This document shows, piece after piece, positions 2 through 21,459 of a stretch of DNA of 21,459 nucleotides. Numbering within the stretch: position 1 is the stretch's first letter; the number at the start of each line of letters is the position of its first letter. The notes beneath the pieces were generated by a model. It did not search any database. It was given only the letters and a program-made list of their open reading frames with translations, and was not told the DNA's origin. The translations under genes and the position numbers were made by a program. Source of the stretch: a virus; the IMG/VR virus record IMGVR_UViG_3300037189_016757, positions 1-21,459 of that record; one strand, 5' to 3'.

Positions 2-1177
2 TTCTATAATGATGTTAGTAATCAACAAAATAATGCTTATAAGTATTTTCCTAATCCTTTAATAGATAAGTTTATACCTAATAATAACAATAGAATATTT
101 AAGTCTTTACCTAAGTCTGATGGAGAACTTATAGATAATTGGAAGATATTTAAACCACTTAATTTTATAGATGTTGAAGGTGATTTAGGAGATATTAATG
201 ATTTAGTATCTTATAAAGATAAGTTATTTTTCTATCAAACAAATGGTATAGGTATAGTAGCTAGTGGTGAGAAACAATCTATTACTGATAACAAGGATAA
301 TAGTATTCAATTATCTAGTGTTGTACCTTTAAGTAGGTATGATTATTTATCTAGAATAACTGGCGTAGGACATAGATTTGCTACTTGTAATACTGATAAT
401 AGTGTGTATCATTTTGATGTCTTTAGAAAGAAGTTATATGAGCTTAGTGAGCAAGGTTTAGTACCTATAAGTGATATGACTAGTACTAACAGTTTAATGA
501 ATAGTTTAATCAATAATAGTATCTATGAAGATAGTACAACTAATCTTGTAGATGGAGCAGGTATTCATTTAGAATTCTACCCTGAATATAGCTTACTATT
601 ACTTACATTTAATAACTATAATAGAACTACACAAATCAATAGGTTAGATAAAACTCTAGCTTATAATACTTTACTCAAACAATTTGAAAGCTATCATGAT
701 TTTAAACCTGGTAGTTATTTAAGAGCTAATAATTTGTTGTTATCTGCTAAAGATAATAAAGGTTATACCCACTTTAAAGGGGAATACAATAATATATATG
801 ATAGTCCTGTTGAAAGTAATATTAAAATAGTAACTAATGCTAATCCTGAGATTAATAAGGTATTTGATAATATGTTATTGTATATAGATGGAGAAGATAC
901 TATTACTAAGATTAAATGTGAGAATCAATTTCAAAATACTAACAATCAAACTTTAACTATATCAAACGGATTATATAGTAATCCTACTAATTTAATTAAG
1001 AAGAGAGAAGGTAGATGGTATTTAGATATACCTAGAGATGCTACTACTCCTAGTATTGCTACAACTATTAAACCTAGAATGAGAGGTAATTATATTATAT
1101 CTACTCTTACTTGGGATAGTAGTAATCAATTTAAATTGTTTGATATATTAACTAAGTATAGAATATTTAATAGATAA
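2..1177 (+). CDS. Tail muzzle-like structural protein, C-terminal part (5' end outside window)
   Basis: The reading frame is open from base 2 to a TAA at 1175-1177, giving 391 residues of a protein whose start lies upstream. It has alternating short hydrophobic and polar strands typical of a beta-rich structural protein. Segments such as WKIFKPLNFIDVEGD, DKLFFYQTNGIGI, FESYHDFKPGSYL and PEINKVFDNM recall the large muzzle protein of crAss-like phages (the gp44 position in crAss001), which caps the tail and gates release of cargo. Two cysteines are visible (in RFATCN and KIKCEN). The stop is followed directly by TAG and then, one base later, by the ATG of the next gene, so co-transcription is likely. 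Its position just upstream of cargo-type proteins and the RNA polymerase polyprotein agrees with the crAss-like gene order. The family call rests on remembered sequence style and context; a different beta-rich tail protein is the main alternative. Confidence 0.72.
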   Translation, partial: FYNDVSNQQNNAYKYFPNPLIDKFIPNNNNRIFKSLPKSDGELIDNWKIFKPLNFIDVEGDLGDINDLVSYKDKLFFYQTNGIGIVASGEKQSITDNKDNSIQLSSVVPLSRYDYLSRITGVGHRFATCNTDNSVYHFDVFRKKLYELSEQGLVPISDMTSTNSLMNSLINNSIYEDSTTNLVDGAGIHLEFYPEYSLLLLTFNNYNRTTQINRLDKTLAYNTLLKQFESYHDFKPGSYLRANNLLLSAKDNKGYTHFKGEYNNIYDSPVESNIKIVTNANPEINKVFDNMLLYIDGEDTITKIKCENQFQNTNNQTLTISNGLYSNPTNLIKKREGRWYLDIPRDATTPSIATTIKPRMRGNYIISTLTWDSSNQFKLFDILTKYRIFNR

Positions 1178-4761: not shown

Positions 4762-6846
4762 ATGTACAATAAAGATAAAATATTTCAAATGACTGGTTTA
4801 AGTGAATCAGAATTTTACAAAAAATATCCAACTAAAGCTCATTTTGAGAAAGAGCACGGAGCTGATATATTTGCTAAAGGTGGATTTATGCAAGATAATA
4901 CTACTAAGAGTAATCAAAAAGCTTTTAATAAAGCTGAGCAAATGTATGATGATAGCTTAGCTTTATTTAACTCTGCTAATATTGATAATCAATGGATGGC
5001 TAATATAGATAAAACTAAAGTATCTAGAAAAGACTATAAAGCTCAAATGCAAACACAAGATAGAGATGCTTTACAAGAAGCTTATGATAGGTTATTAAGA
5101 ACTAATAATCAAGCTCCTGAAATATCTTCTAATACTCTTAATGTTTTAAGGTCTGATAATCCTAAAGCAACTAAAGAGCTTATATTAATGAATCAATATA
5201 AGAAACCTACTAATCCACCTCTTAATCCTAAAAACTTTCCTACAAAAAAAGAAAGAGATGCTATGGATTTAAAACAAATGCAACTAAATCAACAGTTTGC
5301 TGAAGGCGGATTAATAAATTCTTTAGATTTAAAAGGAATTGGAACAACAGCTGGTGGTTTAGTAGGAAGTATAGCTGGTGGTTTAGGTGGATTAGCAATA
5401 GCTGGAGGAGGAGCAATACCTACTGGAGGAGCATCTTTACTAGCAGCTTTACCAGCAGCAGCAGCTGGTGTTGGAATTGGAGGAGCTTTAGGATCAGGTG
5501 CTGGTAATTTAGCAGGTAGGGCTGGTAATGGTTTATTAAAAGGTATTGGAGGAGCTAAAAATTCTTTTGATCAGCTTCAAAATAGTAATATATTTGGTGA
5601 TGGTGGACAATTAACTGAAGTTAATGCTGGTGGTACTCATGAAGAAAATCCTAATAGTGGAGTTCCTGTAATGGAAGGTAAACTAGTTGAAGAAAATGAA
5701 ACTATATTTGATAGTCCTAAAGGTAAATATGTATTTAGTGATAGAATGGGTTATGCTGATAAATCTAAAAAAATAGAAAAAAAATATTCTAAAAGACCTA
5801 ATGATAAATTATCTAATGATTCTAGAAAAAGAGAGCTTAGTGCTTTAATGTTAGAACAAGAAGCAGAAAAAGCTAATGAAGCTCAGAATAATGAAATGTT
5901 TGATGGTGGAGGATTATTAAATAAAACTGATTATTTAAATAGTTATATAGGACAGCCTTCAGGTAGCTTAACTAATGGTTTAGTAAATAATTTTGCTCCA
6001 TTGATTAGTAAGCCTACTACTACTTTTAATCAAGATGATAATTTAAATAGTTTACCATTTAATGGGGTAGATAGAGTACCTTCTATGAATAAATTACCTA
6101 TTCAAGAAATGCCTAACTCAGTTACAACTGGCTTAGGTAAATCTATAGATAAATCTAGTTTTACTCCTATGAAAAGACAACTTTTAAATAGTCCTAAAGT
6201 AACAGCTACTCCTAATTTAACTAAATCAGATTTAAAACCACCTAAACCTATTAATGAAAGTAACTTTAATTTAAAAGATATTGATTTAAGTATATTAGAT
6301 TATTTACCTCAAGGAACAGCTAGTTTATTCAATATAGCTAAAGGTATTGGTAGTAATAAACAAATTAACTATAAAGGTATTACACCTAGATTGATGAATA
6401 ATAATTATAATTTAACTAGTAGTTTAACTAATTTAAATAATGATTCAGCTGGAGTTAATACTGATATTAGAACTAATAGTAATCTTTCTTTAGCACAAAA
6501 AATAAGTGCTTTAGGTTCAGTAGCAGCTAATACTCAAAAAGCTAAAGCTGGTATGATTAACCAATCTAACTTTGCTAATATGGGTGCTAATAATAATTTA
6601 ATTAATTCAGCTAAAGAATACAATGCTGGAGTATTTGATAGAAATATTGATGCTAATGAAATGTATCAAGACAAAAGAGCTGAAGCTATTAAAACAGGCT
6701 TAGATACTTTAGGTACAGGTTCTAGCACTTATATTAAAGATAAGAAAGCTAATGAATATGAAAATGCTAATAATAAAATGTTAGCTGGTTTATTTAAGGA
6801 ACTTTATCCTGAAGCTACTAAAAGAGCTAAATTTAAATTTGAATAA
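4762..6846 (+). CDS. Virion cargo-type protein with four GG motifs and Gly/Ala-rich segment (694 aa)
   Basis: The ATG is one base after the TAA of the previous gene (TAATATG), so translation is probably coupled. The protein opens with a short segment ending in FAKGGFM (37-43). Then come a KAEQMYDDSL helix shared with the previous protein (57-66), FAEGGLI (179-185), a long Gly/Ala-rich hydrophobic stretch (about 190-262), FGDGGQL (278-284), and a segment NAGGTHEENPNSG followed by LVEENE and YVFSDRM (about 288-330). That last pattern recurs, as I remember, in proteins of Bacteroidetes phages. After a Lys-rich part comes FDGGGLL (380-386) and an Asn/Ser/Leu-rich C-terminal half that looks helical or disordered. 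No cysteine was seen. Nothing points to an enzyme. A structural or ejected protein that inserts into a membrane fits the Gly/Ala segment and the neighbours, but this is inference. A terminator-like hairpin follows the gene. Confidence 0.78.
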   Translation: MYNKDKIFQMTGLSESEFYKKYPTKAHFEKEHGADIFAKGGFMQDNTTKSNQKAFNKAEQMYDDSLALFNSANIDNQWMANIDKTKVSRKDYKAQMQTQDRDALQEAYDRLLRTNNQAPEISSNTLNVLRSDNPKATKELILMNQYKKPTNPPLNPKNFPTKKERDAMDLKQMQLNQQFAEGGLINSLDLKGIGTTAGGLVGSIAGGLGGLAIAGGGAIPTGGASLLAALPAAAAGVGIGGALGSGAGNLAGRAGNGLLKGIGGAKNSFDQLQNSNIFGDGGQLTEVNAGGTHEENPNSGVPVMEGKLVEENETIFDSPKGKYVFSDRMGYADKSKKIEKKYSKRPNDKLSNDSRKRELSALMLEQEAEKANEAQNNEMFDGGGLLNKTDYLNSYIGQPSGSLTNGLVNNFAPLISKPTTTFNQDDNLNSLPFNGVDRVPSMNKLPIQEMPNSVTTGLGKSIDKSSFTPMKRQLLNSPKVTATPNLTKSDLKPPKPINESNFNLKDIDLSILDYLPQGTASLFNIAKGIGSNKQINYKGITPRLMNNNYNLTSSLTNLNNDSAGVNTDIRTNSNLSLAQKISALGSVAANTQKAKAGMINQSNFANMGANNNLINSAKEYNAGVFDRNIDANEMYQDKRAEAIKTGLDTLGTGSSTYIKDKKANEYENANNKMLAGLFKELYPEATKRAKFKFE
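4870..4890 (+). repeat. FA-x-GG-type peptide 3 (FAKGGFM)
   Basis: Residues 37-43 of the 694-residue protein. It lies just before the YDDSL module. Cutting after Gly41 would leave a fragment whose start resembles that of the 1,192-residue protein. Confidence 0.6.
4921..4959 (+). repeat. KA-x-Q-x-Y-x-DSL peptide, copy 2
   Basis: Codons 54-66 read AFNKAEQMYDDSL, the counterpart of residues 12-24 in the upstream protein. The stretch is internal here but N-terminal there. Confidence 0.6.
5296..5316 (+). repeat. FA-x-GG-type peptide 4 (FAEGGLI)
   Basis: Residues 179-185. It stands immediately before the Gly/Ala-rich hydrophobic segment and shares FAEGG with the copy at 3015-3038. Confidence 0.6.
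5332..5547 (+). other. Gly/Ala-rich hydrophobic segment (candidate membrane-active region)
   Basis: About 70 codons in the 694-residue protein consist largely of Gly, Ala, Leu and Ile, with patterns such as GGLVGSIAGGLGGLAIAGG and LLAALPAAAAGVGIGG. Repeated small residues at three- to four-residue spacing resemble glycine-zipper membrane helices, and almost no charged residue interrupts it. It could form helical hairpins in the host membrane during ejection. A soluble oligomerisation segment is the alternative. Confidence 0.6.
5593..5613 (+). repeat. FA-x-GG-type peptide 5 (FGDGGQL)
   Basis: Residues 278-284. This is a looser copy, with Gly instead of Ala and Gln in the first position after Gly-Gly. 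It directly precedes the NAGGTHEENP segment. Confidence 0.5.
5899..5919 (+). repeat. FA-x-GG-type peptide 6 (FDGGGLL)
   Basis: Residues 380-386. It is the most divergent copy, lacking the Ala, and separates the Lys/Glu-rich part from the Asn/Ser-rich C-terminal half. Confidence 0.45.
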
Positions 6847-6939: not shown

Positions 6940-8919
6940 ATGAGATTTTACGATAATAAACTTAATAAAATAGAGTCTAATTATGTTCCTAAGAATATAC
7001 CTTGGGAATTTTTATATAAGACTTTTGAGAAAGAACAAGCTGGTATAGATAAGGTTAAAGTAGATGCTGAAGCAGCTAAAGATCTTTTTAATATTAATCC
7101 TGGTGAACACTTTGATAAAGCTGGTGTAGATAAAGTACTAGCTCCTTATAGAGAGCAATATGATGCTTTAACTAATGATATACGAAGTGGTAATTATAGT
7201 GCAGCTGAAAATGCAGCTAAATTAACTGGATTTGTATCTAAATATAAAGCAGATAAAAAAGTTAATGCTTTAAAACAAGCTGAAGGTGAGTATGTTAAAT
7301 ATACTCAAGACAGGTTAGACCCTAAGAAAAACCAAGAATATAGTAGAGCTATGAATTCAGTTTTTTATAAAGGAGATATACAAAATCTTATAGACCCTTC
7401 TACTGCTTCTGAAGAAGTTATTAATAATGCTTATAGATTTAGAATAGCTCCTACTACAGATAATGCTTTTAAAGATGCTTATTCTTATTTAAAACCAGAA
7501 TCTCATGAATATACCAATCAACTTATTAATAATGGTACAGTAAAAGTAAGAAATGTAGGTGGTAAAAATATGTTAATTAATACAAGTAATGATAATGTAA
7601 ATACTCAATTAACTTATAAAATGGTTTATGATCAATTATTAGAAAAAGGTAAACAATTAGCTTTAGACCCTAACCAAGATGAATTATATGGATTTAGAGT
7701 AGAAGAGTATGCTAGAAATGGTTGGGGAGAATATACCCCTGAAATGTATGCTAAAGAAGGAGCTAAAAATTATACAGGTGAAATTAACAATACTTCTAAT
7801 TCTGATAAAAATATTGTTTTAGGTGAAATGGAAAGTAATAATAATCTTCCTTATGACCAATCTCAAATACCTGTAAATATACCAGTAACTATTAATAAAC
7901 CTGGTGCAATAAAAGGATTAACTGGAGATCCTAATGTGGCTACTAATGCTACAGAAAAAGGGTTTTGGGAGAATTTAGAAGAAGGAGAAGCTATAGGAGC
8001 TATTTGGAATTATTTAAGTAGTGATGAGCCAGGTAAACAAGATATTGTACATAACAATCAATATAAAGAATTAAAAAGAGTAGCTACTGATTTTTTTAAA
8101 CAGACTCAAAATATAGATCTAACAAAGCTGAATGAAAAAGATACTCATAATAAATTAAAAGAGTATTTTGAAAATTTTTATAATAATATTCAACCTCAAC
8201 ATTTCAATACTTATAATGTATCTGGTATAAATGATTTATCTAATTCTTTTTGGTATGATAAAAACGGAACACCTACTTTAGATAAAAAACAATATGATTT
8301 GAATTCTAAAATAATAAATGATGCTATTAAAAATAACGATCAAGATTGGATTATTGTTAATACTCAAATACCATATGCTACACCTATGTCTATAAGTGAT
8401 TTTAAATCAAACTACGAAGGAGTATTAGATTTAGGTGTAAACTTATCTGGAGGAAAACAACCAGGAACTAATTATTTAGATAAATCTATGATAGGAGGTT
8501 ATTTAATTAATTCTAAAGCTGATAAAAATAAAGATACTGCTCCTTATTATATAATCAAACCTAAAACACAACAAATACCAGAAAATCAAGCAGCTTTAAA
8601 TTCATTTTATAAATTCGGTTTAAACCCTGTATCTAAAGTTAATTATAGCAGCAATACTTTTCCTGTAGGACAAGCTATTAAAGATGCTGATAATAATGTA
8701 ATAGGAATTCAAGCAACTCATCAACAACCTGTTAAAGGGGTTCAAGGAAGAGAGTACAGAAATGGTTTAGAAATTTTAACTTTTAATGGCTCTGTAGTAG
8801 GCGATGATGGTAATATTTATAAATTTTCTACAACAGGCTATAATATAGACCAATTAAGTAGTAACGTAGGTATAAAAGCTTACGATATTTTATATAATAA
8901 TAATGCTTTACAAAAATAA
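6940..8919 (+). CDS. Putative internal virion/cargo protein (659 aa)
   Basis: ATG 6940 is the first start after an in-frame TAA at 6934-6936. The first 125 residues look helical and charged (IPWEFLYKTFEKEQ, a VLAPYREQYDALTNDI stretch, then repeated Ala/Lys/Glu helices). This resembles the N-terminus of cargo-type proteins found before the RNA polymerase in crAss-like phages. The middle (about 280-470) contains acidic and Asn-rich loops. The last third has a beta-like pattern with YIIKPKTQQIP, PVGQAIKD and GNIYKFSTTGYN. No cysteine, signal peptide or membrane segment was seen, and no catalytic motif was recognised. It is the first gene after the terminator and promoter-like box and is separated from the giant polyprotein gene by six bases. 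The two are thus probably one transcription unit, and the protein may be a packaging or ejection partner of the polymerase. Function is inferred only from position and style. Confidence 0.7.
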   Translation: MRFYDNKLNKIESNYVPKNIPWEFLYKTFEKEQAGIDKVKVDAEAAKDLFNINPGEHFDKAGVDKVLAPYREQYDALTNDIRSGNYSAAENAAKLTGFVSKYKADKKVNALKQAEGEYVKYTQDRLDPKKNQEYSRAMNSVFYKGDIQNLIDPSTASEEVINNAYRFRIAPTTDNAFKDAYSYLKPESHEYTNQLINNGTVKVRNVGGKNMLINTSNDNVNTQLTYKMVYDQLLEKGKQLALDPNQDELYGFRVEEYARNGWGEYTPEMYAKEGAKNYTGEINNTSNSDKNIVLGEMESNNNLPYDQSQIPVNIPVTINKPGAIKGLTGDPNVATNATEKGFWENLEEGEAIGAIWNYLSSDEPGKQDIVHNNQYKELKRVATDFFKQTQNIDLTKLNEKDTHNKLKEYFENFYNNIQPQHFNTYNVSGINDLSNSFWYDKNGTPTLDKKQYDLNSKIINDAIKNNDQDWIIVNTQIPYATPMSISDFKSNYEGVLDLGVNLSGGKQPGTNYLDKSMIGGYLINSKADKNKDTAPYYIIKPKTQQIPENQAALNSFYKFGLNPVSKVNYSSNTFPVGQAIKDADNNVIGIQATHQQPVKGVQGREYRNGLEILTFNGSVVGDDGNIYKFSTTGYNIDQLSSNVGIKAYDILYNNNALQK

Positions 8920-8925
8920 TAATAT

Positions 8926-11900
8926 ATGCCTTTAATACCAAATAATAATAATAATAAAAGAATCAATCCAACTTTTTCTTTACCAGATATTAAAAATTTA
9001 AATGTAAATTTGGGTAATACTGGTTTAGATGCTTTTGTAACTAATCAAGATTTAGCTAATAATATTATTAACAACCAAGAAGATGTTGATGCTATTAATG
9101 CTGAAAGGCAAGAATCTATAGCTAAATGGGGAAAAGGTATAAGTAATGTTATAACAGGAGGAGCTATAGAAATAGCTAAAGCTCCTGGTTACTTATATGG
9201 TTTAGGTGATTGGGCTAGTAGCGGGTTTAAATCTGCTGAAATAGATAGAGCATTTAGTAATACTTATTTAAAAGATTTAGAACAATTAGAAGAGTTTACT
9301 AAAGGAGAAGTATATGTACCTAAAGATGTTAAAGAAGGTAATATGTTTGAAAAACTATGGTCTAGCGGTTTTTGGGGAAGTACTGTAGCTGATGGTGCTA
9401 AATTTATGGTTGGTATGATGGGAGTGTCTGCTGCTACTAGAAGTTTAGGATTAGGAGCTAAAATAGCTTCTGGTATACAAGGATTATCAGAAGCTGAGTC
9501 TATTACTGCTAATGGAGTAAAAGCAGGTATACAGCTAAATAAATTATCTAGACGTATAGATACAGGTTTAAATGTATCTATAAACACACATATTGAAGCA
9601 GCACAAGAAGCTAAAGGTGTTTATGATGCTATTATTAAACAAGGTGGTAGTAAAGAATTAGCTGGTAGAGAAGCTGCTAATAATTATTTAACAAATGCTG
9701 TTATATTATTTGGTCCTAATATATTATTTGAAAATCAATTTTTTAAAAATAAATTTAAAGGTGATGAAGCTTCTACTAGAATGGCTTTAGATGCTTTTGA
9801 AACAGGAGCAGCTAAAGTAGGAGCTAAAAAAATTGCGGCAAATTGGACTAAAAATATATTATTAGGTATTGGTTCTGAAGCTTTTTGGGAAGAAGGTATG
9901 CAATTAGCTTCTGAAAAATATTTTACAAATAGAGGTGTTGATGCTACTAAAGGTAAACTTGTAGATGAAAATGAGTTTAGTCCTTGGGGTATTGTTAAAC
10001 AATATTGGGATAATGTAGGTACAGATGAATTTATAGATAGTGTTTTAACAGGTGCTATATTAGGTACTTCTGGAGCAGTAGTTAGTTCTGTTAAAGATAC
10101 TAAAAGAGCTAACAGAGCTTTAAATGGTTATACTACTAAATATGGTTATAAAATGCCTGGTTTAAAAGATTTAGGAGCTACTTTACTTAAAGGGGGTTAT
10201 GATAATTTAGATGGTATATATGAAAGTAGTGTAGATGATAAAGGTGTAAAAACTTATAAATTAAAGAGTGACGGTAGTAGAGTTGTTAATAAAGATAAAT
10301 TTGATGAGTGGGTAAAAGCTAATGATGCTTTACAATTAACAGCTATTTTAGCTCAAAAAGCAGATAGTGAATTAGGTGAAGCAGGAGTAGCTATTAAAAA
10401 TCTTTTTAGAGATAAAGGATTAATGTCTAAATTTCAAAGTTATTTTGATATGGACGGTGGTGTAGATTTACTTAAAAAAATTATAGATACTAAAATACAA
10501 GAAGAAGTTTTTGATAGTATTTCTCAAGTATTAGATTTAAAACAATCTAACGCTGAATTAAAAAAAGATTTACTACAAAAAGTAGATGATATGAAAGAGC
10601 TTTATGATTATAATAAAAGTTCTTTTTCTAAAAGGTTTAAATTAAATCCTACAACTAAGAAAGGTAGTATTGAAGAACAATCTTTAAATGCTACTAAAAG
10701 TGATAATTACTTTACTAGATTTGATCATTATACTACACAATATTCTTTAAATAATAGAATTAAAGAATTAGAAGATAAAAAGAACAAATTAACTTTCTTT
10801 GGAATAAATACTGTAGTTAATCAAAAAGAAAGAGTAGCAGCTATTGATGCTGAAATTAAATCATTAACTGAATTAGTTAATAACTCTATTTTAGAAACTA
10901 ATAAATTAGATTCTTTAGAAGAGCAGAAAAAAACATATGAAGATAAACTAAAAGAATTTAAAGAAAAAGCAGAAAAAACAGAAGCTGTTGAAGAGCAGAA
11001 ACCTCAAGAAGTTAAAAATGCTGAAGCTATGGCTGAAGCTACAGCTAAAGCTAATGCTGATTATTTAAAACAACAAGAAGAAGAAAGATTAGCTGCTGAA
11101 GAAAAGGCTAATAATGTTGGTGAAGATGGGTTACCTCCTAGAGATACTACAGATGATGATCCTAATCTTAGTGAAGAAGATGATTTAGCAGCTAAATTAG
11201 CAGCTAAAAATAATGTTACTAATGGTAATATAATGCAATACCTATTAAATAAAAATGGTATGCAACCTGATTTAGCAGCTAAAGTAGAAAACTATTTAAG
11301 CTTGTTAGACTTAGAACATCCTTTAGTAGATGCTGCTAGATTATTAACAGATAAAAAAACATCTAAAGATACTTTATTAAATCTTAAAAAACAAGGTCCT
11401 GAAATGTTTAGTGATCCTAGCGATGCACTTTCTTTAAAAGCTTTTAATAAAATTATAGATGATAGAATTAAAGTGCTAGATAAAGAAGAAGCTGAAAGAT
11501 TAGAAAGAGAAAAACCTATATCTGTTGCTAGTGTATTTAATAATGCTGATGTATTAAGTAAAATTATTAGAACAAATGGGTTTTATAGAGATGATGTTTT
11601 TGATGCTTTATTAAGAGATTTACCTTATGAAGAATTTGTTAAAGATTTAACTTTTACTTATTCTAAAAATACAAATGAATCTAAAGTACAACCTATAAAT
11701 ACTAGAGTAAGTGTAATAACTCCTACTCATCAATTTAACCTTTTTTATAAAGATAAGCAAATAGGATTTGTACCTGGAGTAAATAAATATTTATTTGATG
11801 GTAAATTAATTACAAATGAAAATATAGATAGTTTAGTTGGGCCACTTAACTTTCATTCATATTTCTCTAAAGAGGAAAAGTATGATGTGTTTAAAGAAAT

Positions 11901-14900
11901 GCTAAATAAACAATCTGTTTTAAACAATAATTTAAAAACCTTATTAGGTAATAATCAATTTATTAGATTAAATCTTGAAGAGTTTAGTCAATATGCTGAT
12001 ATAAATCTTTCAGCAGGTGAATTAGATATTAGAGAAAAAGGACAAGATGTTACAGTTGCTGATTTAGAATCTGATACTTTTAATTACTTTGAAGGTAACT
12101 TTGTAGTTGTTCAAAATAATATAGAAGTAAAACCTGGAGAGTCACCTTTTAGAATTTTAGACCCTGTTCCTGTTGTATTTAAAAAGGATAGTGAAGCTAA
12201 AAGAATTAGAACTAGTGAAATACAAGATGAAGTAACAGAAGCTCTTAATAAGCTTCAAAATAGAGATAATTTAGGTAGATATTTATTAGTTGTTAAATTA
12301 GGAAACGGTGCTATAAAATTTATACATTTAAAAGGTAGTGAGTTAGATAGTGTTAGACAAGCAGCTCTTATAGATTCTCTTAATGTTAGATTAAATGAAA
12401 CTATTACAGAAAATACTAGTGAGATTAATGATGGTAAAACTTTAAAAACTGTAACAAAATCAAATACTTTTAATGAACTTTTTAATAAAGAGCTTAATGA
12501 AAGCTTTATGATAGCTTTACCTCAAGGATTTGATATGAAAATACAAGTATCTCCTTCAGGTAAAATAACATTTATTACTTCTTATAAAGCTCAAAAACAT
12601 GTAGCTGGTCAAAAAGGTTCTCTTGGACAATCTTTAGATAAAAATTCAGTATATCAAATATTAGGTAAACCTATTGTAGATATGGAAGATTTACTTAAAC
12701 ATGTTAAATACGCTTTTAAAAAAGCTATAACAGACCATAATGAATTATTAAGTGATGAAGCTACTACTTCTGCTATTAATTTTACTGATACAATAACTAG
12801 TAAAAATTTTAGAACAGGTATTCCTAAAGAATTAAATGCTAAAGTTATTAGAACTTTACTTACTTCTGTTAATAAGAGTGTTACTAAAAGAGCTACTATT
12901 AACATAATAGGTAAAGCTGATGTATCTGCTAAACCTAATGTTGCTGAAGAAGAAGTATTAGCTGCTTTAAATAATGTAACTGTAAGTACAGAAGAACTTA
13001 CTGCTACTAATCCTGTTTTAAAAGATATAACTGAAGGTTTAAATTTAGGAGAATTAATTAAATTAAGAAATAAACTTAGAGTTAAACGAAATAAAACACA
13101 AGAAGATACTAATGAATTAGCTAGAGTATCTAAAATTGTTAGTGACCTTGAAGCAAATTTTAAAGCTGATGAAGAAGTAGAATCTGTAGTAACTGATTTA
13201 ACAGATGTTGAAAATAGTGATATAGAAGCTGATAAAAAATGGCTTCAATCTATATTACCTGACTTTATAAGTGTTCAAGAATTAGATGCTATATACAATA
13301 GATTTGTACAAGATAAAACTATTAGTTTAGGTAAATTTCAAGACAGTGTTATTTACTTAGGTAAGAATAGAAAGTCTACTACAAAGCAACACGAAGCTTT
13401 TCACGCTGTATTTAGAATGTTATTATCTGATGGTCAAATAAATAGTTTAATTAATGCAGCTAAACAAGAGAAGCAATTTACTAAAGAAGAAATAGCTAAC
13501 TTTAGATTTAATAGACCTAAGTACAAATATTTAGATGATAGAAGATTATCTTATATTATGTATGAAGAATATCTAGCTGAAGGTTTTGAAAAATGGACTA
13601 AAGATAGAGAATTTAGAACAGGTAATTTAATAAAAGCTTTTTATAGAAGGTTATCTGATTTTGTAAAAAACTTACTAGGCAAACAATCAGAAATTGAGGC
13701 CACTTATAAAAAAATATCTTCAGGTAAATTCAAATCAAATGGACAAGTAGTTAATAGATTTACAAGTGATCTTAGTACAGTTTCTGTAGATGCTGTTGTA
13801 AGAAAAACACCTTTAATTAGTGAAGACAGTGCTCCTATAAGTAGAACATTTACTTCTAATGAAAGTAATATGATTGTATCTATGGTGTACCATCAATATA
13901 GTATTCTTAAAAATGATATTCAAAATACTGAAATACCTAAAAAAGAATTATTAGACATTGCATTAGATACATTAAAAAATAGATATAGTGATAATACTGT
14001 ATATTATGATACAACTAATTTTACAGAAGAAGATTATGAAAAGTTAGATAATATGCACTTTGCTTTTAATAATAAAACTAATAGGGAATCTATTGTTAAA
14101 ACTATTACTAAAAGAGATAAAATTATTGATGCTAAATTTACTGAATATGAAGACGAGGTAGATGAGCATGATTTAGATAAAGCTGATTTAATGGATAAGT
14201 CTGCTAATCATGATTTTAAATGGGAAAACTTTGGAGGTATAGGCTCTTTAAGTAAAAGAGCTAAAGCGTATATGAATACTGTGTATTACTATATTCCAGA
14301 CCCTTTAGATAAAACAAAACAAATACCTGTATCTGTTAATGGAGATAAAGTGTATTCTGGGTTAGTTAAAGCTTTAGCTAATTCTTCAGATTTTAATGAG
14401 ATGTTAGCTAAAATGACTAGCTATAATGATGGGGAAACACAAGCTAGTAAATTTATATCTGCTTTCTTTGAAGATTGTGGTATAGTTTATGATAAAGAGA
14501 CTAATACTTATAAACATACTAAAGACTCACATTTATTTTATAGTGTGCTTAAAACCTTTAATAGGTATAATGTATTGTATAATAAATGGCAAGTAGATGC
14601 TGATTCTAAAGAATCAAGAATGTTTCATATAAATAATACGGATGGACATAAGTATCAATTAAATATTTGGCAAAGAGCTTTTGATGAAAAATATTGGAGC
14701 TTACTAGAAGATAAGAGTATTACTTCTGAAAAAATAAAAAATATTAAACAAGGTATGCAAGGGGTTCTCAGGGACTTTATGAATGCTATTAATGAGCCTG
14801 AATTATCTACTAAAGATATATATGATGAAGTAGAAAAAATCCATAAAGATTTAAAAGATAAACTTGGTATGGAGCTTTCTAAAAATACTATTAAATTTGC

Positions 14901-17900
14901 TATATTAGCTAATAAAGAAAATCTAGATGATGAAACTTTATTAGAATTTAAAGCTAATTTTGCAGATAGAGTTCCTATTGATGCAGAAGATTTAAGTGCT
15001 ATTGCTAGTGATATTGGTAGAGGTAATAACCCCTTTATTAAGGATACTGAAAGTGTTGATGAAGAAGAAGATGGTAAAGTTACTAAAATAGAAGGAGGAG
15101 GTTCTACAACTAGATTAAACCATTTAGCTTTTGCTGATGCTGAGTTTAATGAAAATGTATTTCCTACAAGCTTTAGAAATGCTGAAAATAAAACAGTATA
15201 TGGTTATCAATTACCTACTTTCCACCTATTAAGAATATCTGATTTAGCTAAACAAACTTTTAGAAATGCTTTTAAAAGTAGTACAGAAACTAATAGAAAT
15301 TTATTACTACAAGAAGGTACTGAAGAATATTTAAGTAGACTTAAAGTAGAAAGATTAGCTGGTTTAAATTCAGTTACCTATAAAGAAGGTAGTAAAATTA
15401 TAGATAAAACTAGAACAGATGAAAGAAATAAAAGCTTTGATAAATACACTCCTAAAGAGTTAGCTTCTCAATTGCTAGATATGTGGGGTTCTCAAAAATA
15501 TGAAAGTTTTTATGTAGGAGGTAAAGCAGTTAAAAAGAATATGGCTTTACATTACATTAGAGTATTAGAAGCCTCTAGTACAGCAGATTTAGTTAGATTA
15601 CCTGTAATAGAAGATTTAATTAATAATGATGGGACTTTATCTGATAAAGCAGTTAATCTATTATATGATATATTTTTAACAGAAGCTGATAACATATACA
15701 ATGCTCAATTAGAAATAAACCAAATAAAAGGGTATTTAAATAACGATGGTACTCCTAATATATCTCAAGAAGAATGGGAAGAAAAAGGTTTACCTATTCC
15801 AATATTAAATTACCATTATAGTATTATTGATGGTAAAATAAATTATCAAGAAGTAAGAGGTTTAAAATTCTTTGAAAATAAATTTTTAGATATTGTACCT
15901 AATAGTTTAAAAAATGCTAAAGAAGTAAAAACTGAAAACTTTACTAAGAAGTTTGAAACTGATATAAAAGTTGCTATTAAAGCAGAATATGAAAAGAAAG
16001 CTCAAAACTATATAGATAGTTTAGTTAAATTAAAAGTTATAAATGAGAATAAAGGTATTTACACTAATAACTCATTATTTAATAATTTTTATAATAAAAT
16101 AGTAGAAGATAGAAGTACTATAGAAATAGATACTAATAAAATTAAAGATTTTTATTTAAATGATTTCTTAAATACATATAGTATTAATAACTTATTATTT
16201 GAAAATGAAGCTAAGGTATTTAAAGATAGTATAATGCAAGTTAAAAGAGCTAGAGGTAGTAATGCTGGAGGCCCTAGTTCTGAAACTCAAGAAAAAACTA
16301 ATGTTAATCTTGTTATATTAAATGATGTTGATAGAAATATTAAAATCAATAATGATAATATAGGTACAGTTACTACAACAGATGGTCAAGGTATAATATT
16401 TGATTATGCTTTAAAAGACTTATTAAAAGGTCTAAGTAAATTAGATGCTAAACAAGAAGCTTTTATAGATAAAATAATTAATGGTGAATTAACAGAAGCT
16501 GATATATTTGGTTCTGAAGGTAGTATATCTAGAAAAGGACAATTAATTTCTTTAAAGCTTGTATATAATGATGGTAAAAATTACTACAAATTATCCGTAG
16601 CTATTGTAACCAAAGATTTACTTTATTACAAAGGTAAGCCAAGAGCTGAAAGAATGGATTTAGTTCGTGCTTATGAAAAAGGTAAAGAGAGTAAAGCAGA
16701 TATGATATTGTTTGCTTCTACTTCTAAAAATACAACAGGATTTATTAGTAATGATAAACACTATTTCAATAATAAATCAGAAGCTAAATTTTGGAGATTA
16801 CAACAAGAAAATCCTAGTAATAAAAATAATACTTCATCTCCTTCTCAAACAGAAAACTTGATAGATTCTGAACAAGATTTATCTTTACCTGTATATGGAT
16901 ATGGAGATAAATATAAAACAATTGGTGATGTAGTTAGTAGCTACCAAAGAAACTTAGCTTTACTTAAGAGAAGATTAACAGGTAATAATATTAATACTCT
17001 ATATGATAAAACAAACATACTTAAAGATATTACTCCTGAAAACTATTTAGATAAGTTAAAAGAGCTTAAAACAAGTATTGATAATGGTACTAGTGATATT
17101 AATCTAAATGATTTTGTTGCACAAGCTTTATCAAGTCTTGAAGGTACTGGAGGTAATGAACAATTACTTGAGTTTTTTAGTTTAGATAATAATGATGAAG
17201 CTAAATTTAATTTAAATATTGCTAGTACTTATGATAAATATGTACAATTATTAATAGCACATTTTAATAATAGTGGTTTTAAATTAAAAATACCTGGACA
17301 TACTGGAACTTTAATGAGTGGTTATGGTATGAATGTTATTGAACATAATGGTAAAATTATAGATAGTGATACATATAATGAAAATCCAAGTGCTTATTCT
17401 GGAGCTAAATTTAGAAGACTAAAACATAATGTTGAAGTAAAAGATGTTAATGGTAATGTAGTAACTAGATATTCAGAATGTTTATTTCCTGCTCATTTTG
17501 CTCAGTTATTTGGTTTAAAAATTGGTGATAATCAAGTAGATAGTAGACTATTAGAATTCTTTGGAGTAAGGATTCCTACACAAGATAAGCATTCAATGGT
17601 TAATCTTAGAGTAGTTGGATTTTTACCTGCTCAAATGGGTAGTACTATTGTAGTGCCTGATGAAATTATATTACTATCAGGTGCGGATTTTGATATTGAT
17701 AAGTTATATATGCAAAGATATGACTTTTATGTTAATGAAAATAATGAACCTATTGTTTATGGTACTGCTGTATCTGATGAAGATAAGTTTGAAGAGTATA
17801 AAAAATGGATGTTAAGTAACAATAAAACTGTTAAAAACAAATTTAAAAATTTATTAAAAAATAATAATGATTATATTCAACTTAAACAAATAAAAAAAGA

Positions 17901-20900
17901 CTTATTATCTATTATAGAAACTAATAAGCAGCTTACTAAAGAAGAAATAGGTTATATTAAAGAGTATATACAATATACTGAAGAGTTAGATGCAAGTCTT
18001 TCAAAAGAATCTGATGAGGATTTTATGAAGACTCTTAAAATAACTAAACAAAAACTTAATGCTACTTTAGATAATTTAAAAAACCTTAAATTTGAAAAAA
18101 GAGTATTTACAAATGAAGGTGAATATGGTTATGAAAATTTAGTAGGTATAATAAGAATAACCCATTTAGATTTTGAAAAGATATATCAAGTTAATTTACC
18201 TGAAAGTTTATTAGACAAAATAAATTCTTTTAAAGATGTTTTAAAAACTATAGATGAAATATATGAAGCTACAGAATTAGAAGCTATAAAAGAAACTGGA
18301 TTACCTTTTAATTTAGAGCTATTTAATGAGCTTTCTAAACAAGGTGAACAAAACCCTGGAGTACTTCATAATAACATATTAGAAGCTAAGCAAATACTAT
18401 TAAGTAATGATGGTATACAAAAGAACAAATCAGCTAATGGTGGTTTAGCAATAGGTAGTACTCCTGCTAGTTTAGATATTCTAAAAAAGAAATTACTAAA
18501 CGACCCTATGTATAAAGGTGTTTGGAATATTATAACAGGAAGTTTAAGTGCTAATAGTCCTGATGGTAAAATTAGAGCTTTTAGTAATTTAATGGAAGGT
18601 GCTGCTGGTATTGGACCAATTGTTAACTTTGAGATGATATATACTGTTCTTCAAAAAGCAGGTATTAAATATGATTTTAGTCCTATTACAATAAATGGTG
18701 TAACTTACAATGATTATGGTAATTTATATACTGATAGTAATAGTTTAAATCCTACTAAATACCCTGGTATTAGAAAGTTTGATATTATATCTACTTTAGT
18801 ATCTGCTATGACAGATAATGCTAAAGAAGAATTAGCTGCTATATTTAGAATATCTCAAGATATGTTACCTATATTAGCTCATATGTTAATATTAGGAGTT
18901 AATATATCAGATGCTTTATTAATAATTAATAACCCTATAATAGCTACATATCAAGAAAGATTAAAAGAAACTAAAGGCCACTTAAGAACTAAAAGTGAGA
19001 AAAAAGATTTAAAAGCTTTTACCTTAATAGAGGATATGATTGCTGAACTTGAATCTAATAAATCTGATGAGACTGAAAATAAAGATGAAAATAATTTGGA
19101 AAGTCAAGAAAAAACTCCTATCTTGGCAAAAGATTTTGAATTAACTAGTAAAGCCCTATTAGAAGATGCTAATGGTACTACTAATAATGTCAAATTACAA
19201 AAAGCTTTATTATTGATGTTAAAAGATTTTAAAAAAGATACAGCTCTTCTTAATAATATTATTCAGTTTACTAATAAAAATAAAGGTCTAGCTTCTGATA
19301 TGGAGCAGTTTGATAAATTTGAAGCTGCTATAAAAGAGTTAGGTTTAGAGTTATCAGATGAAGCATTTAAAAAAGCTAAAATTCCTTTTGATTTAAGAAA
19401 TACTATAACTAAAGATATGCCTGTATTAGCTTTTTATTACAAGCAAATAACAAGGTTAAGAAAAAAGATTATGCCTTATTTCTTATTATCAGCCAGTTCT
19501 CATTTTAGTAGTATATATAACTCTTTATATGAAAACTTAGATAATAGAAATAAACATTTTAAATTAAAGAAAGAAGTAACTAATGCTATTAAAAAAGATA
19601 TTTTATCTTATATAAGCATGTTAAGTTATAAAAAATATCTTAAAGATAATGGTTTAACTGAAAAGTTTGAAGGTTTAGATAATTATAGTTTAGTACATAA
19701 AAAAGAAGGTGAAGATAGTATAGTAGATATATATAAAAAAGCTAAAGCATTAGACCCTACAAATCCTTTTATAAACTATGTTATACCTAATCCTTCTCAC
19801 ATACCTAATAAAAACAGAGAGTTAGTACCTAATCCTAATAATTGGAAGAAAATTAATTTATTAAGCCCATCTTCTAAAATAGAAAGAGATTCTGATTATC
19901 AAACTGCTGTTATGGATGGTTTTAAAACTTTGTATTTAAATCCTCAAACTAAACAAGCTGCTATAGCTATTTTTAATTATCTTATTGTTAAAGATGGTTT
20001 ACAATATAAAAATGAAAGTATAGTTAATAACATTGCTAACTTTATATTTACAGATTTATCTAGAAGTTTAGATATTACTTTAAGTAAATTTAAAAATTCT
20101 AATTTATCTGATACTGAATTTAAAGAAGTATTTGGTAAAACTAAAAATCAAATGATTAAAGAATTTGTAGATTTATATACTATTAATGGTCATAATAGTT
20201 ATCAATTACAAGCTGTTGTTGGAGATACTCAAAAAATATATACTGCTCTTAGAGAGAATGTAAGAGGTGCTAGAAGAATAACTGAAGAAGAAAGTGTTGA
20301 TGATAAAGGTAAAGTAGTAATTGATCTTAGACATAGTATTAAAAAAGTAGAGACAACTGATAAAGAAGGTAATAAAATTACTAAAATAAAATCAGAAAAA
20401 TTACCATTTGAAGAGTATAAAACTGTTAGAGAAGAAATATCTGAATTATTTGGTGATAAATTTTTTAAAGAAGTAGAAGAAGATATACAATATACAGATG
20501 CTGAAGATAATACAGTAAAAGATTCAACTAGAATACTATATCAATTCCCTTATAGGTTTGTTATAGGTAATAGAACTTTTAGATTAGAGTCTTATAGTAA
20601 TAGTGGTAAAAAACTTAGTGTATTAGATAACTTTGCTACAGGTAAATTTACAGGTACTAGAGCTGTTTATGTTTTAGATGAGGGCTATCATGGTAATAAA
20701 AATGTTACTAATTTAGTTGTAACTGAAGAAACACAGCCTTTATATACTAAAGATAAAAACTATAAAAGGGATAATTCTTCTATGCTTACAGATGAAGATT
20801 TTGATGAAGAAGATAATTATTCTGAAGAAGAAACAGATGATGATTTTTCTGGAGAAGAATCTAATAGTATTTTAGATGTTTTAGCTAGTAGAGAAACTAC

Positions 20901-21156
20901 CACACCTGAAATTTCTACAACAGAAACTACTCAACCAACTACTAGTTCTGAAAATAAAGATGTAATAGATACAGCTAAATTTCAAGAATTTATGTTAAGT
21001 AATGATATATATAGTGCTATACAAATGTTAGGATATAAATTTGACAAAAGTACAAGTACCTTTATCAAAGGTCAAGAAATAATAAAAGTAGAAGATACAG
21101 AAGCTATTTTAAAAGTAGTAAAAGAATTTTCAAAAGATAATAATTTAAAATGTTAA
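8926..21156 (+). CDS. Giant virion polyprotein: gluzincin metallopeptidase plus two-barrel RNA polymerase (4,076 aa)
   Basis: ATG 8926 follows the upstream stop after six bases (TAATAATATATG) with no Shine-Dalgarno. Layout by residue: Asn run (6-10); hydrophobic, Gly/Ala-containing stretches (about 60-85, 146-185, 370-388); helical region; coiled coil (about 609-730) ending in an acidic linker (732-757); a large unrecognised mixed region (about 765-1400); gluzincin domain with HEAFH at 1489-1493 and EEYLAE at 1547-1552; then, from roughly 1640, a region of the size expected for a phi14:2 gp66-like RNA polymerase (about 2,200 residues). Polymerase marks are TDGQG (2485-2489), STSKN with Lys2601, RIPTQDKHSM (2882-2891), GADFDID (2919-2925; the three Asp should bind the catalytic Mg) and TDNAKEE (3296-3302), possibly in the bridge-helix region. 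The tail is strongly acidic (about 3949-3983), then Thr-rich, and ends in Cys. Only three cysteines were seen (1851, 2852, 4076). By analogy with phi14:2 it would be packaged, ejected and used for early transcription. Confidence 0.88.
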   Translation: MPLIPNNNNNKRINPTFSLPDIKNLNVNLGNTGLDAFVTNQDLANNIINNQEDVDAINAERQESIAKWGKGISNVITGGAIEIAKAPGYLYGLGDWASSGFKSAEIDRAFSNTYLKDLEQLEEFTKGEVYVPKDVKEGNMFEKLWSSGFWGSTVADGAKFMVGMMGVSAATRSLGLGAKIASGIQGLSEAESITANGVKAGIQLNKLSRRIDTGLNVSINTHIEAAQEAKGVYDAIIKQGGSKELAGREAANNYLTNAVILFGPNILFENQFFKNKFKGDEASTRMALDAFETGAAKVGAKKIAANWTKNILLGIGSEAFWEEGMQLASEKYFTNRGVDATKGKLVDENEFSPWGIVKQYWDNVGTDEFIDSVLTGAILGTSGAVVSSVKDTKRANRALNGYTTKYGYKMPGLKDLGATLLKGGYDNLDGIYESSVDDKGVKTYKLKSDGSRVVNKDKFDEWVKANDALQLTAILAQKADSELGEAGVAIKNLFRDKGLMSKFQSYFDMDGGVDLLKKIIDTKIQEEVFDSISQVLDLKQSNAELKKDLLQKVDDMKELYDYNKSSFSKRFKLNPTTKKGSIEEQSLNATKSDNYFTRFDHYTTQYSLNNRIKELEDKKNKLTFFGINTVVNQKERVAAIDAEIKSLTELVNNSILETNKLDSLEEQKKTYEDKLKEFKEKAEKTEAVEEQKPQEVKNAEAMAEATAKANADYLKQQEEERLAAEEKANNVGEDGLPPRDTTDDDPNLSEEDDLAAKLAAKNNVTNGNIMQYLLNKNGMQPDLAAKVENYLSLLDLEHPLVDAARLLTDKKTSKDTLLNLKKQGPEMFSDPSDALSLKAFNKIIDDRIKVLDKEEAERLEREKPISVASVFNNADVLSKIIRTNGFYRDDVFDALLRDLPYEEFVKDLTFTYSKNTNESKVQPINTRVSVITPTHQFNLFYKDKQIGFVPGVNKYLFDGKLITNENIDSLVGPLNFHSYFSKEEKYDVFKEMLNKQSVLNNNLKTLLGNNQFIRLNLEEFSQYADINLSAGELDIREKGQDVTVADLESDTFNYFEGNFVVVQNNIEVKPGESPFRILDPVPVVFKKDSEAKRIRTSEIQDEVTEALNKLQNRDNLGRYLLVVKLGNGAIKFIHLKGSELDSVRQAALIDSLNVRLNETITENTSEINDGKTLKTVTKSNTFNELFNKELNESFMIALPQGFDMKIQVSPSGKITFITSYKAQKHVAGQKGSLGQSLDKNSVYQILGKPIVDMEDLLKHVKYAFKKAITDHNELLSDEATTSAINFTDTITSKNFRTGIPKELNAKVIRTLLTSVNKSVTKRATINIIGKADVSAKPNVAEEEVLAALNNVTVSTEELTATNPVLKDITEGLNLGELIKLRNKLRVKRNKTQEDTNELARVSKIVSDLEANFKADEEVESVVTDLTDVENSDIEADKKWLQSILPDFISVQELDAIYNRFVQDKTISLGKFQDSVIYLGKNRKSTTKQHEAFHAVFRMLLSDGQINSLINAAKQEKQFTKEEIANFRFNRPKYKYLDDRRLSYIMYEEYLAEGFEKWTKDREFRTGNLIKAFYRRLSDFVKNLLGKQSEIEATYKKISSGKFKSNGQVVNRFTSDLSTVSVDAVVRKTPLISEDSAPISRTFTSNESNMIVSMVYHQYSILKNDIQNTEIPKKELLDIALDTLKNRYSDNTVYYDTTNFTEEDYEKLDNMHFAFNNKTNRESIVKTITKRDKIIDAKFTEYEDEVDEHDLDKADLMDKSANHDFKWENFGGIGSLSKRAKAYMNTVYYYIPDPLDKTKQIPVSVNGDKVYSGLVKALANSSDFNEMLAKMTSYNDGETQASKFISAFFEDCGIVYDKETNTYKHTKDSHLFYSVLKTFNRYNVLYNKWQVDADSKESRMFHINNTDGHKYQLNIWQRAFDEKYWSLLEDKSITSEKIKNIKQGMQGVLRDFMNAINEPELSTKDIYDEVEKIHKDLKDKLGMELSKNTIKFAILANKENLDDETLLEFKANFADRVPIDAEDLSAIASDIGRGNNPFIKDTESVDEEEDGKVTKIEGGGSTTRLNHLAFADAEFNENVFPTSFRNAENKTVYGYQLPTFHLLRISDLAKQTFRNAFKSSTETNRNLLLQEGTEEYLSRLKVERLAGLNSVTYKEGSKIIDKTRTDERNKSFDKYTPKELASQLLDMWGSQKYESFYVGGKAVKKNMALHYIRVLEASSTADLVRLPVIEDLINNDGTLSDKAVNLLYDIFLTEADNIYNAQLEINQIKGYLNNDGTPNISQEEWEEKGLPIPILNYHYSIIDGKINYQEVRGLKFFENKFLDIVPNSLKNAKEVKTENFTKKFETDIKVAIKAEYEKKAQNYIDSLVKLKVINENKGIYTNNSLFNNFYNKIVEDRSTIEIDTNKIKDFYLNDFLNTYSINNLLFENEAKVFKDSIMQVKRARGSNAGGPSSETQEKTNVNLVILNDVDRNIKINNDNIGTVTTTDGQGIIFDYALKDLLKGLSKLDAKQEAFIDKIINGELTEADIFGSEGSISRKGQLISLKLVYNDGKNYYKLSVAIVTKDLLYYKGKPRAERMDLVRAYEKGKESKADMILFASTSKNTTGFISNDKHYFNNKSEAKFWRLQQENPSNKNNTSSPSQTENLIDSEQDLSLPVYGYGDKYKTIGDVVSSYQRNLALLKRRLTGNNINTLYDKTNILKDITPENYLDKLKELKTSIDNGTSDINLNDFVAQALSSLEGTGGNEQLLEFFSLDNNDEAKFNLNIASTYDKYVQLLIAHFNNSGFKLKIPGHTGTLMSGYGMNVIEHNGKIIDSDTYNENPSAYSGAKFRRLKHNVEVKDVNGNVVTRYSECLFPAHFAQLFGLKIGDNQVDSRLLEFFGVRIPTQDKHSMVNLRVVGFLPAQMGSTIVVPDEIILLSGADFDIDKLYMQRYDFYVNENNEPIVYGTAVSDEDKFEEYKKWMLSNNKTVKNKFKNLLKNNNDYIQLKQIKKDLLSIIETNKQLTKEEIGYIKEYIQYTEELDASLSKESDEDFMKTLKITKQKLNATLDNLKNLKFEKRVFTNEGEYGYENLVGIIRITHLDFEKIYQVNLPESLLDKINSFKDVLKTIDEIYEATELEAIKETGLPFNLELFNELSKQGEQNPGVLHNNILEAKQILLSNDGIQKNKSANGGLAIGSTPASLDILKKKLLNDPMYKGVWNIITGSLSANSPDGKIRAFSNLMEGAAGIGPIVNFEMIYTVLQKAGIKYDFSPITINGVTYNDYGNLYTDSNSLNPTKYPGIRKFDIISTLVSAMTDNAKEELAAIFRISQDMLPILAHMLILGVNISDALLIINNPIIATYQERLKETKGHLRTKSEKKDLKAFTLIEDMIAELESNKSDETENKDENNLESQEKTPILAKDFELTSKALLEDANGTTNNVKLQKALLLMLKDFKKDTALLNNIIQFTNKNKGLASDMEQFDKFEAAIKELGLELSDEAFKKAKIPFDLRNTITKDMPVLAFYYKQITRLRKKIMPYFLLSASSHFSSIYNSLYENLDNRNKHFKLKKEVTNAIKKDILSYISMLSYKKYLKDNGLTEKFEGLDNYSLVHKKEGEDSIVDIYKKAKALDPTNPFINYVIPNPSHIPNKNRELVPNPNNWKKINLLSPSSKIERDSDYQTAVMDGFKTLYLNPQTKQAAIAIFNYLIVKDGLQYKNESIVNNIANFIFTDLSRSLDITLSKFKNSNLSDTEFKEVFGKTKNQMIKEFVDLYTINGHNSYQLQAVVGDTQKIYTALRENVRGARRITEEESVDDKGKVVIDLRHSIKKVETTDKEGNKITKIKSEKLPFEEYKTVREEISELFGDKFFKEVEEDIQYTDAEDNTVKDSTRILYQFPYRFVIGNRTFRLESYSNSGKKLSVLDNFATGKFTGTRAVYVLDEGYHGNKNVTNLVVTEETQPLYTKDKNYKRDNSSMLTDEDFDEEDNYSEEETDDDFSGEESNSILDVLASRETTTPEISTTETTQPTTSSENKDVIDTAKFQEFMLSNDIYSAIQMLGYKFDKSTSTFIKGQEIIKVEDTEAILKVVKEFSKDNNLKC
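8941..8955 (+). repeat. (AAT)5 trinucleotide repeat encoding an Asn run
   Basis: Five AAT codons begin with codon 6 of the giant polyprotein, next to an A/T-only stop-start junction. Changes in repeat number would keep the frame. The stretch also keeps the start region free of RNA structure, which may help initiation without a Shine-Dalgarno. Confidence 0.75.
13231..13710 (+). other. Gluzincin metallopeptidase domain inside the giant polyprotein (approximate bounds)
   Basis: HEAFHAVF is encoded from 13390, preceded by KWLQSILPDFIS, GKFQDSVIYL and TTKQ. About 55 residues later comes YEEYLAEGFEKW (13561-13596), giving Glu1548 or Glu1552 as the likely third zinc ligand. This arrangement, with a strand before the HExxH helix and a downstream EE-x-LAE helix, is what I recall for the zincin domain of crAss-like phage polyproteins. 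It sits between the N-terminal half and the polymerase part, a good place for self-cleavage, though cleavage is not shown. Confidence 0.78.
16300..18960 (+). other. Two-barrel RNA polymerase catalytic region inside the giant polyprotein (approximate bounds)
   Basis: The beta-like barrel is suggested by TDGQG (16378-16392), the following Lys-rich strands and STSKN (Lys2601 at 16726-16728). The beta'-like barrel carries RIPTQDKHSM (17569-17598) and DFDID (17686-17700). The latter pair parallels the R-x-P-T-x-x-x-H and NADFDGD motifs of cellular beta' subunits, with Ile in place of the Gly of DFDGD. Downstream, SANSPDGKIRAFSNLMEGAA (near 18547) and TDNAKEE (18811-18831) are probably part of the bridge-helix and trigger-loop side. 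All three Asp of the metal-binding motif are present, so the enzyme should be active. Confidence 0.82.
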
Positions 21157-21157
21157 T

Positions 21158-21459
21158 ATGAGCCATTGTGTAATAAGAAACAATACAACAGATTTAATAG
21201 AAAAAGTAATAACAGATAGTGGTGAAAACTCTATTCTGTATAATAAAATAGTAGATAAGTTACCTGATAATATACAATATAATCAGCTATCAGATTATCT
21301 TAAAAATCAAATAGGTAATGGTAATATTAAAGACTTATCTAAAGAAGAAATAGCTTTAGGTATTTGGAATAAATATACTAATCAAGATGTTGAAGGTAGA
21401 GATGTTGATATTAATGATGAATTAGATATTAAATATATAGATATTGATTCAGAAGTTAA
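21158..21459 (+). CDS. N-terminal part of a further crAss-like phage protein (3' end outside window)
   Basis: ATG 21158 lies one base after the TAA of the giant gene (TAATATG), the same junction as at 4758-4764. The frame is open for 100 codons to the window end, where two bases of codon 101 remain. The start, MSHCVIRN, then GENSILYNKI, EEIALGIWNKYT and an acidic end with DINDELDIKY, recalls the conserved beginning of other giant polyproteins in crAss-like phages (pattern MSKCV, S-x-LY, A-x-x-x-W-x-x-YT). It may therefore be the next large RNAP-linked or cargo protein. The visible part has no catalytic motif and too little sequence for more. Tight spacing places it in the same transcription unit as the polyprotein. 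Confidence 0.7.
   Translation, partial: MSHCVIRNNTTDLIEKVITDSGENSILYNKIVDKLPDNIQYNQLSDYLKNQIGNGNIKDLSKEEIALGIWNKYTNQDVEGRDVDINDELDIKYIDIDSEV

Follow-up and report, generated by a model that had tools for sequence, protein, structure and literature searches.

Single cysteines mark the breaks between the virion RNA polymerase and its neighbouring proteins in crAss-like phages

The window analysed here is a single metagenome contig of 21,459 bases (IMG/VR record IMGVR_UViG_3300037189_016757), and every substantial gene in it lies on the plus strand (Table 1). Judged from its genes, with muzzle and cargo-1 homologues beside the transcription block, it belongs to a crAss-like phage of the order Crassvirales. 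A long ORF separates the muzzle gene from the cargo-1 gene, a position at which crAss001 lacks a gene. The ORF that follows cargo-1 had no family match in the Pfam scan and is named by its position, with a gene order that matches gp45-gp46-gp47 of crAss001 and gp69-gp68-gp67 of phi14:2. The next ORF, here called the giant, fills more than half of the window, and behind it the contig ends within a gp65-type gene.

Table 1. Features of the window. Residue numbers within the giant refer to its own translation.
Feature	Position	Strand	Basis or remark
Crassvirus muzzle protein, C-terminal part	2..1177	+	Pfam crAss_MUZ E 5e-42, crAss_MUZ_C E 3e-14
1,192-aa ORF, zero cysteine, own HEIGH motif at 456	1182..4760	+	
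Cargo protein 1 homologue, 694 aa, zero cysteine	4762..6846	+	Pfam crAss_CARG1 E 7e-13
ORF at cargo protein 2 position, 659 aa, zero cysteine	6940..8919	+	gene order
Giant, gp67-gp66 fusion, virion RNA polymerase, 4,076 aa	8926..21156	+	
Region homologous to phi14:2 gp67, residues 40-394	9043..10107	+	26.7% identity, E 1e-23; full search E 5e-19
Predicted zincin-type metallopeptidase domain, residues ~1427-1610	13204..13755	+	AlphaFold2 pLDDT 80, pTM 0.74
HEAFH, residues 1489-1493	13390..13404	+	H, E, H invariant in 42 relatives
EEYLAE, presumed third zinc ligand helix, residues 1547-1552	13564..13581	+	E, E nearly invariant
Disordered linker joining the gp67-type to the gp66-type part, residues ~1626-1663	13801..13914	+	pLDDT < 50
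gp66-aligned region, residues 1801-3566	14326..19623	+	hhalign probability 100%, E 2.2e-43
First double-psi barrel region, KR 2440, DGQG 2486, K2544, K2555	16243..16590	+	invariant columns
RIPTQ, residues 2882-2886	17569..17583	+	R, P invariant
DFDID catalytic motif, residues 2921-2925	17686..17700	+	three D invariant; gp66 1361-1365
Codon of Cys4076, final residue of the giant	21151..21153	+	kept at breaks in relatives
gp65-type protein, start only, cut by contig end	21158..21459	+	position; N-terminal MSHC as in gp65-type starts of relatives
Cys4 codon of the gp65-type protein, presumed to pair with residue 4076 of the giant	21167..21169	+	

The frame of the giant is open throughout (translation table 11), and two relatives (L014, 4,326 aa; L015, 4,296 aa) have the same unbroken frame, co-linear with it along most of the stretch from the zincin onward. 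Scans of the giant with Pfam, PHROGs and NCBIfam yielded nothing significant, and plain sequence comparison with the PDB returned chance matches only. The N-terminal 1,600 residues, which a preliminary description of this DNA had treated as an extra added to a polymerase, are not an addition: they correspond to gp67, a virion protein encoded next to the polymerase in phi14:2, with which residues 40-394 show homology. The hydrophobic stretches and the coiled coil claimed for residues 1-1640 turned out weaker than stated, the former coming down to a single marginal stretch (residues 369-387) and the latter to a Lys/Glu-rich stretch at about residues 640-770 without a significant family match.

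A metallopeptidase domain is predicted directly before the linker. In its alignment the columns H63, E64 and H67 (residues 1489, 1490 and 1493 of the giant) are invariant across 42 relatives, and E121, E122 and A125 (residues 1547, 1548 and 1551) nearly so. The model of residues 1427-1663 places HEAFH on one helix and the EE pair on a later long helix. A profile search matched the domain to a pro-pro endopeptidase (E 0.007), and the best structural neighbours of the model were nearly all HExxH-type zincins, at Z scores of only 5-6.4 and rmsd values of 2.7-5.5; Foldseek gave E > 1. The predicted structure is consistent with a zincin fold and falls short of proving it. crAss001 gp47 and a Dulem virus 41 protein likewise carry a zincin at their C-terminus, and gp45 of Carjivirus is annotated as 'RNAP associated protein fused to zincin protease'. 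HExxH motifs further occur within the first 500 residues of 71 of the 171 gp65-type proteins (e.g. at residue 245 of phi14:2 gp65 and residue 167 of cr125_1 gp65), so that a second zincin-like site often lies just past the gp66/gp65 joint.

The part behind the linker aligns with phi14:2 gp66, and the surroundings of DFDID match gp66 in the sequence search as well. Ten residues are invariant over 37 relatives (K2440, R2441, D2486, K2544, K2555, R2882, P2884, D2921, D2923 and D2925), and all coincide with the same residues of gp66; those of the barrel correspond to gp66 K893, R894, D962, K1012 and K1027 in the hhalign alignment, with all catalytic residues in register. For the predicted structure of residues 2146-3205 the top match was PDB 6VR4 (Foldseek E 4e-21; Z 21.2, rmsd 5.8 over 663 residues), followed by plant and fungal two-barrel RNA polymerases. 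A T7-like polymerase fold of the N4 type was not found in the giant, the predicted fold being the two-barrel one. As judged from alignment and model, the polymerase part is a crAss-like virion RNA polymerase of the gp66 family, with two barrels carrying the catalytic lysines and DFDxD. In phi14:2 the polymerase is injected with the DNA and transcribes early genes (Drobysheva et al., described in PMC7886860). By analogy with phi14:2 and crAss001, the giant would be packaged in the virion and act in early transcription.

Since the zincin belongs to the gp67-type protein and gp66 homology follows it, the giant is gp67 plus gp66, two proteins that are separate genes in phi14:2, combined in one chain. 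Where gp67 and gp66 are separate proteins, the boundary between them lies near the linker of the giant, which shows no conserved residues when aligned across relatives. The main observations of the preliminary description are borne out, namely an unbroken frame of 4,076 codons, a crAss-like phage (supported by the muzzle and cargo-1 genes upstream), a zincin-type peptidase before a gp66-kind two-barrel polymerase in one chain, and the four motifs with their spacing, which are conserved in relatives and not due to chance. Its view of the giant as a 'self-contained ejection machine' is unsupported, since the window also encodes cargo-1, the cargo-2-position protein and a gp65-type protein. Nor is the fusion unusual.

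Fusion of gp67 with gp66 also exists in Suoliviridae and in many IMG/VR contigs, and so is not new as such. The zincin and the polymerase share one frame in the Suoliviridae cr10_1 and, with TAG decoded as Gln, cr125_1; Intestiviridae fuse gp66 on its other side with gp65, and all three parts are fused in L028 (5,642 aa; same contig as L193) and in L054 (5,485 aa). On a tree of the polymerase core, where breaks were assigned from length, at least 23 changes of state were counted for the gp67/gp66 joint and at least 13 for the gp66/gp65 joint. In cr116_1 (L009) the polymerase gene itself seems to be split near DFDxD with a 648-nt gene in between, probably by insertion of a mobile element. What appears to be new here is a rule that accompanies the breaks, and it concerns cysteine.

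The giant contains three cysteines, at residues 1851, 2852 and 4076, and none at its N-terminus. It ends in NNLKC directly before the stop codon, and the next ORF starts with MSHC. In phi14:2, where all three genes are separate, the only cysteines are residue 1797 of gp67 (its last), residues 3 and 2179 of gp66 and residue 3 of gp65. Across 235 non-redundant relatives the same pattern holds almost always: at each break in the gp67-gp66-gp65 series a cysteine ends the upstream piece and another begins the downstream piece. The window obeys this rule with one peptide joint and one cysteine joint.

Overall, about 97% of the upstream pieces carry the end cysteine and 94-99% of the downstream pieces the start cysteine, in proteins that are otherwise nearly cysteine-free. 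Internal cysteines are absent from 98 of 225 polymerase ORFs, and their frequency in these ORFs (0.15%) gives a chance expectation of about 2% per end. Against this 2%, a start cysteine was present in 104 of the 111 polymerase ORFs that begin 1,000-2,600 residues before DFDxD; the count was 4 of 50 for those beginning at least 2,800 residues before it. At the other end, the same chance of 2% compares with 174 of 180 polymerase ORFs ending in cysteine when gp65 is separate, and with none of 26 when gp65 is fused. Separate gp65-type proteins have a cysteine in the first 15 residues (170/171) and almost never in the last 12 (1/143); separate gp67-type proteins show the mirror image, with a cysteine in the last 12 residues (81/84) and none in the first 15 (0/53). 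Fused joints and the outer ends of the series carry cysteine at or below chance. Long C-terminal parts that reach the end of gp65 are never Cys-terminal, and those without gp65 homology are. For pairs of adjacent genes upstream of the polymerase, cysteines were found on both sides in 96 cases, on neither in 51 and mixed in 12 (Fisher p 2e-28). Other gene pairs at the same loci gave only six cysteine pairs in 147, and all six are neighbouring pieces of the same block.

The rule was also confronted with 158 loci fetched after it had been formed. In this held-out set the polymerase ORF starts with cysteine in 74 of 77 cases at a break and in 0 of 36 when it extends far upstream, and it ends with cysteine in 119 of 123 cases with gp65 separate and in 0 of 13 with gp65 fused; gp65 starts with cysteine without exception (118/118) and gp67 ends with it in 60 of 62. 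A tree-corrected test with breaks labelled by length alone is weaker (median p 0.016 for the N-terminal joint, 0.06 for the C-terminal one), because long ORFs that are broken elsewhere are there labelled unbroken.

Each end has one cysteine, mostly residue 3-5 counted from the start or one of the last four before the stop, and no other strongly conserved residue was found in its surroundings. A nucleotide signal in place of an amino acid was considered and rejected, both TGT and TGC being used at the ends. A composition artefact was likewise rejected: terminal cysteines in other ORFs at these loci (27/228 and 34/228) occur at about the rate given by composition (Cys 0.93%). We found no open-literature paper on terminal cysteines of crassvirus cargo proteins, although Drobysheva 2021 and Yutin 2018 might mention them.

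Several loci amount to experiments of nature. A cysteine pair also accompanies breaks in uncommon positions, be it inside the gp67 part (L019, L022, L024, L039) or inside gp65 (L161), and likewise the extra breaks in L024, L031 and L039. The fully fused chains of L193 and L054 have zero cysteines. Ferritin genes that stand between the gp66 and gp65 genes lack a start cysteine, which the gene after them carries; the pairing skips the ferritin. Genes of about 165 aa between the gp66- and gp65-type genes were seen at eight loci (L081, L110, L119, L130, L140, L199, L073 and L219), and the two that were scanned, L081 and L140, are ferritins (PF00210, E 4e-15 and 7e-14). The gp47 of crAss001 keeps its terminal RCNS although its gene lies on the opposite strand to those of gp50 and gp49. 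Real exceptions are L071 and L098, which have no gp67 tail cysteine; six apparent ones (L170, L213, L281, L300, L307 and L315) show a lone cysteine 18-50 residues before the C-terminus. Many internal cysteines occur in Intestiviridae and the zeta group.

The best explanation, which we consider probable, is that gp67, gp66 and gp65 form one serial thread whose joints are either peptide bonds or cysteine pairs. The bond between such a pair is most likely a disulfide, as read from the sequences, although it could be another cysteine-dependent contact. Under this explanation the three parts would have to travel through the tail as one covalent thread, and a terminal disulfide would replace the peptide bond wherever the genes are separate. 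In the window, gp67 and gp66 would be held together by a peptide bond, and residue 4076 would pair with residue 4 of the next protein. The near-absence of internal cysteine would prevent wrong bonds. Because the host cytoplasm is reducing, their formation as disulfides would have to wait for a late stage, in the virion. The virion tail of crAss001 does contain disulfides, and its cargo proteins are presumably in a partly unfolded state when ejected (PMC10172136). On entry, cytoplasmic reduction would free the disulfide-linked parts, and at peptide-bonded joints the zincin may cut. That a covalent thread of about 5,500 residues is injected whose disulfides come apart by reduction in the cytoplasm, with redox timing the release of the polymerase, appears likely to us, if a little less so than the serial thread as such.

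It is possible that the peptidase frees the polymerase. The more specific scenario, in which the zincin acts in maturation and severs the fused chain at the linker, in the virion or after entry, leaving gp67-type and gp66-type parts as separate as they are in phi14:2, is suggested by the position of the zincin directly before the linker, by its fold-level similarity to peptidases and by the distribution of its motif, HExxH being intact in 93 of 105 fused vs 20 of 83 split forms. This comparison uses the HExxH motif alone, because a zincin profile built from fused chains recovers only 1 of 84 separate gp67 proteins, and after tree correction the link with the fused state is suggestive (median p 0.06). 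However, crAss001, Carjivirus and Dulem virus 41 retain the C-terminal zincin in their separate gp67 proteins, with nothing to cut, a clade of fused chains (including L054, L056, L065, L080, L250 and others) has no zincin, the linker is devoid of conserved residues, and a zincin could equally target the cell wall or host proteins. We therefore regard this scenario as rather unlikely.

Less probable still is a plain fusion in which the terminal cysteines have a role other than tying the parts together, be it a shared metal site at each joint, docking to portal or tail, or disulfides within homodimers. Single cysteines could join a metal site with residues from elsewhere, and the evidence at hand is sequence. 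But the cysteines disappear where the parts are fused (0/26, and none in L193 and L054), are missing at the outer ends (0/53 and 1/143) and come singly with no other conserved residue nearby, and breaks at new places gain a cysteine pair. Chemical ligation or protein splicing into a peptide bond would account for the loss of cysteine on fusion, yet ligation needs cysteine as the first residue, and the observed cysteines stand at position 3 or later (position 2 in 2/284), which makes this scenario highly improbable. Finally, an assembly artefact or a stop codon lost in one genome, conceivable for a single metagenome contig, can practically be dismissed as the source of the unbroken frame, since independent contigs carry co-linear unbroken frames (L014, L015, many other loci, cr10_1 and cr125_1).

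The serial thread bears on the question of how protein cargo of megadalton size gets through a narrow phage tail in correct order and stoichiometry, in phages that have been described as the most abundant viruses in the human gut (PMC10172136). If true, single terminal cysteines that link separate injected proteins one behind the other, and that give way to gene fusion in relatives, would be a simple and directly testable mechanism. The cysteine rule also suggests why ejected proteins, those of N4 included, are nearly cysteine-free.

Among known systems, phi14:2 is one of the closest to the window. Its gp66 (PDB 6VR4), like the giant, is a two-barrel polymerase with KR, a DGQG-type site, the lysines and DFDID, and is reportedly, following Drobysheva et al., an active polymerase by itself. 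The gene order is also the same, with cargo, gp67 (1,797 aa), gp66 (polymerase, 2,180 aa) and gp65; the latter three are annotated as virion proteins by mass spectrometry and have one cysteine per inner end. Unlike in the window, gp67 and gp66 are separate genes, and the phi14:2 gp67 has no HExxH. The chains of cr125_1 (4,502 aa) and cr10_1 (4,460 aa) share with the giant the zincin-polymerase order in one frame and a cysteine near the C-terminus, but differ in sequence, with about 25-30% identity that is confined to the zincin and barrel regions. In the Intestiviridae Carjivirus (gp45/gp44) and crAss002 (gp32/gp33), a zincin-bearing gp67-type protein accompanies a polymerase of the same family as that of the window, and cysteines stand at the gp67/gp66 break, except that crAss002 gp33 as annotated has no start cysteine; in contrast to the window, gp66 is fused to gp65. 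Thioredoxin-family proteins are encoded near the transcription block in Carjivirus (L004) and in ctcc615 (L007).

More distant parallels exist outside the crAss-like phages. The second Foldseek match of the giant's polymerase model was gp96 of P23-45, a two-barrel virion polymerase fused to a tape measure (PMC10770324); it differs from the giant in this tape-measure partner and in the N-terminal place of the polymerase. N4 gp50 contains HExxH (PMC12633501), found here as HELVH at residue 2228, in a domain that, unlike the zincin of the giant, comes after the polymerase. Like the giant, it is a very large single-chain polymerase; it is injected with the DNA, as the giant would be, and it has zero cysteine. 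The polymerase of N4 gp50 is of the T7-like kind, not two-barrel. At the N4 locus (L332, 9524-22524) the ejected gp50 (3,500 aa), gp51 and gp52 all have zero cysteines, while the portal has 2 and the tail sheath 11. The giant would work like N4 gp50, yet it is not a member of the N4 type.
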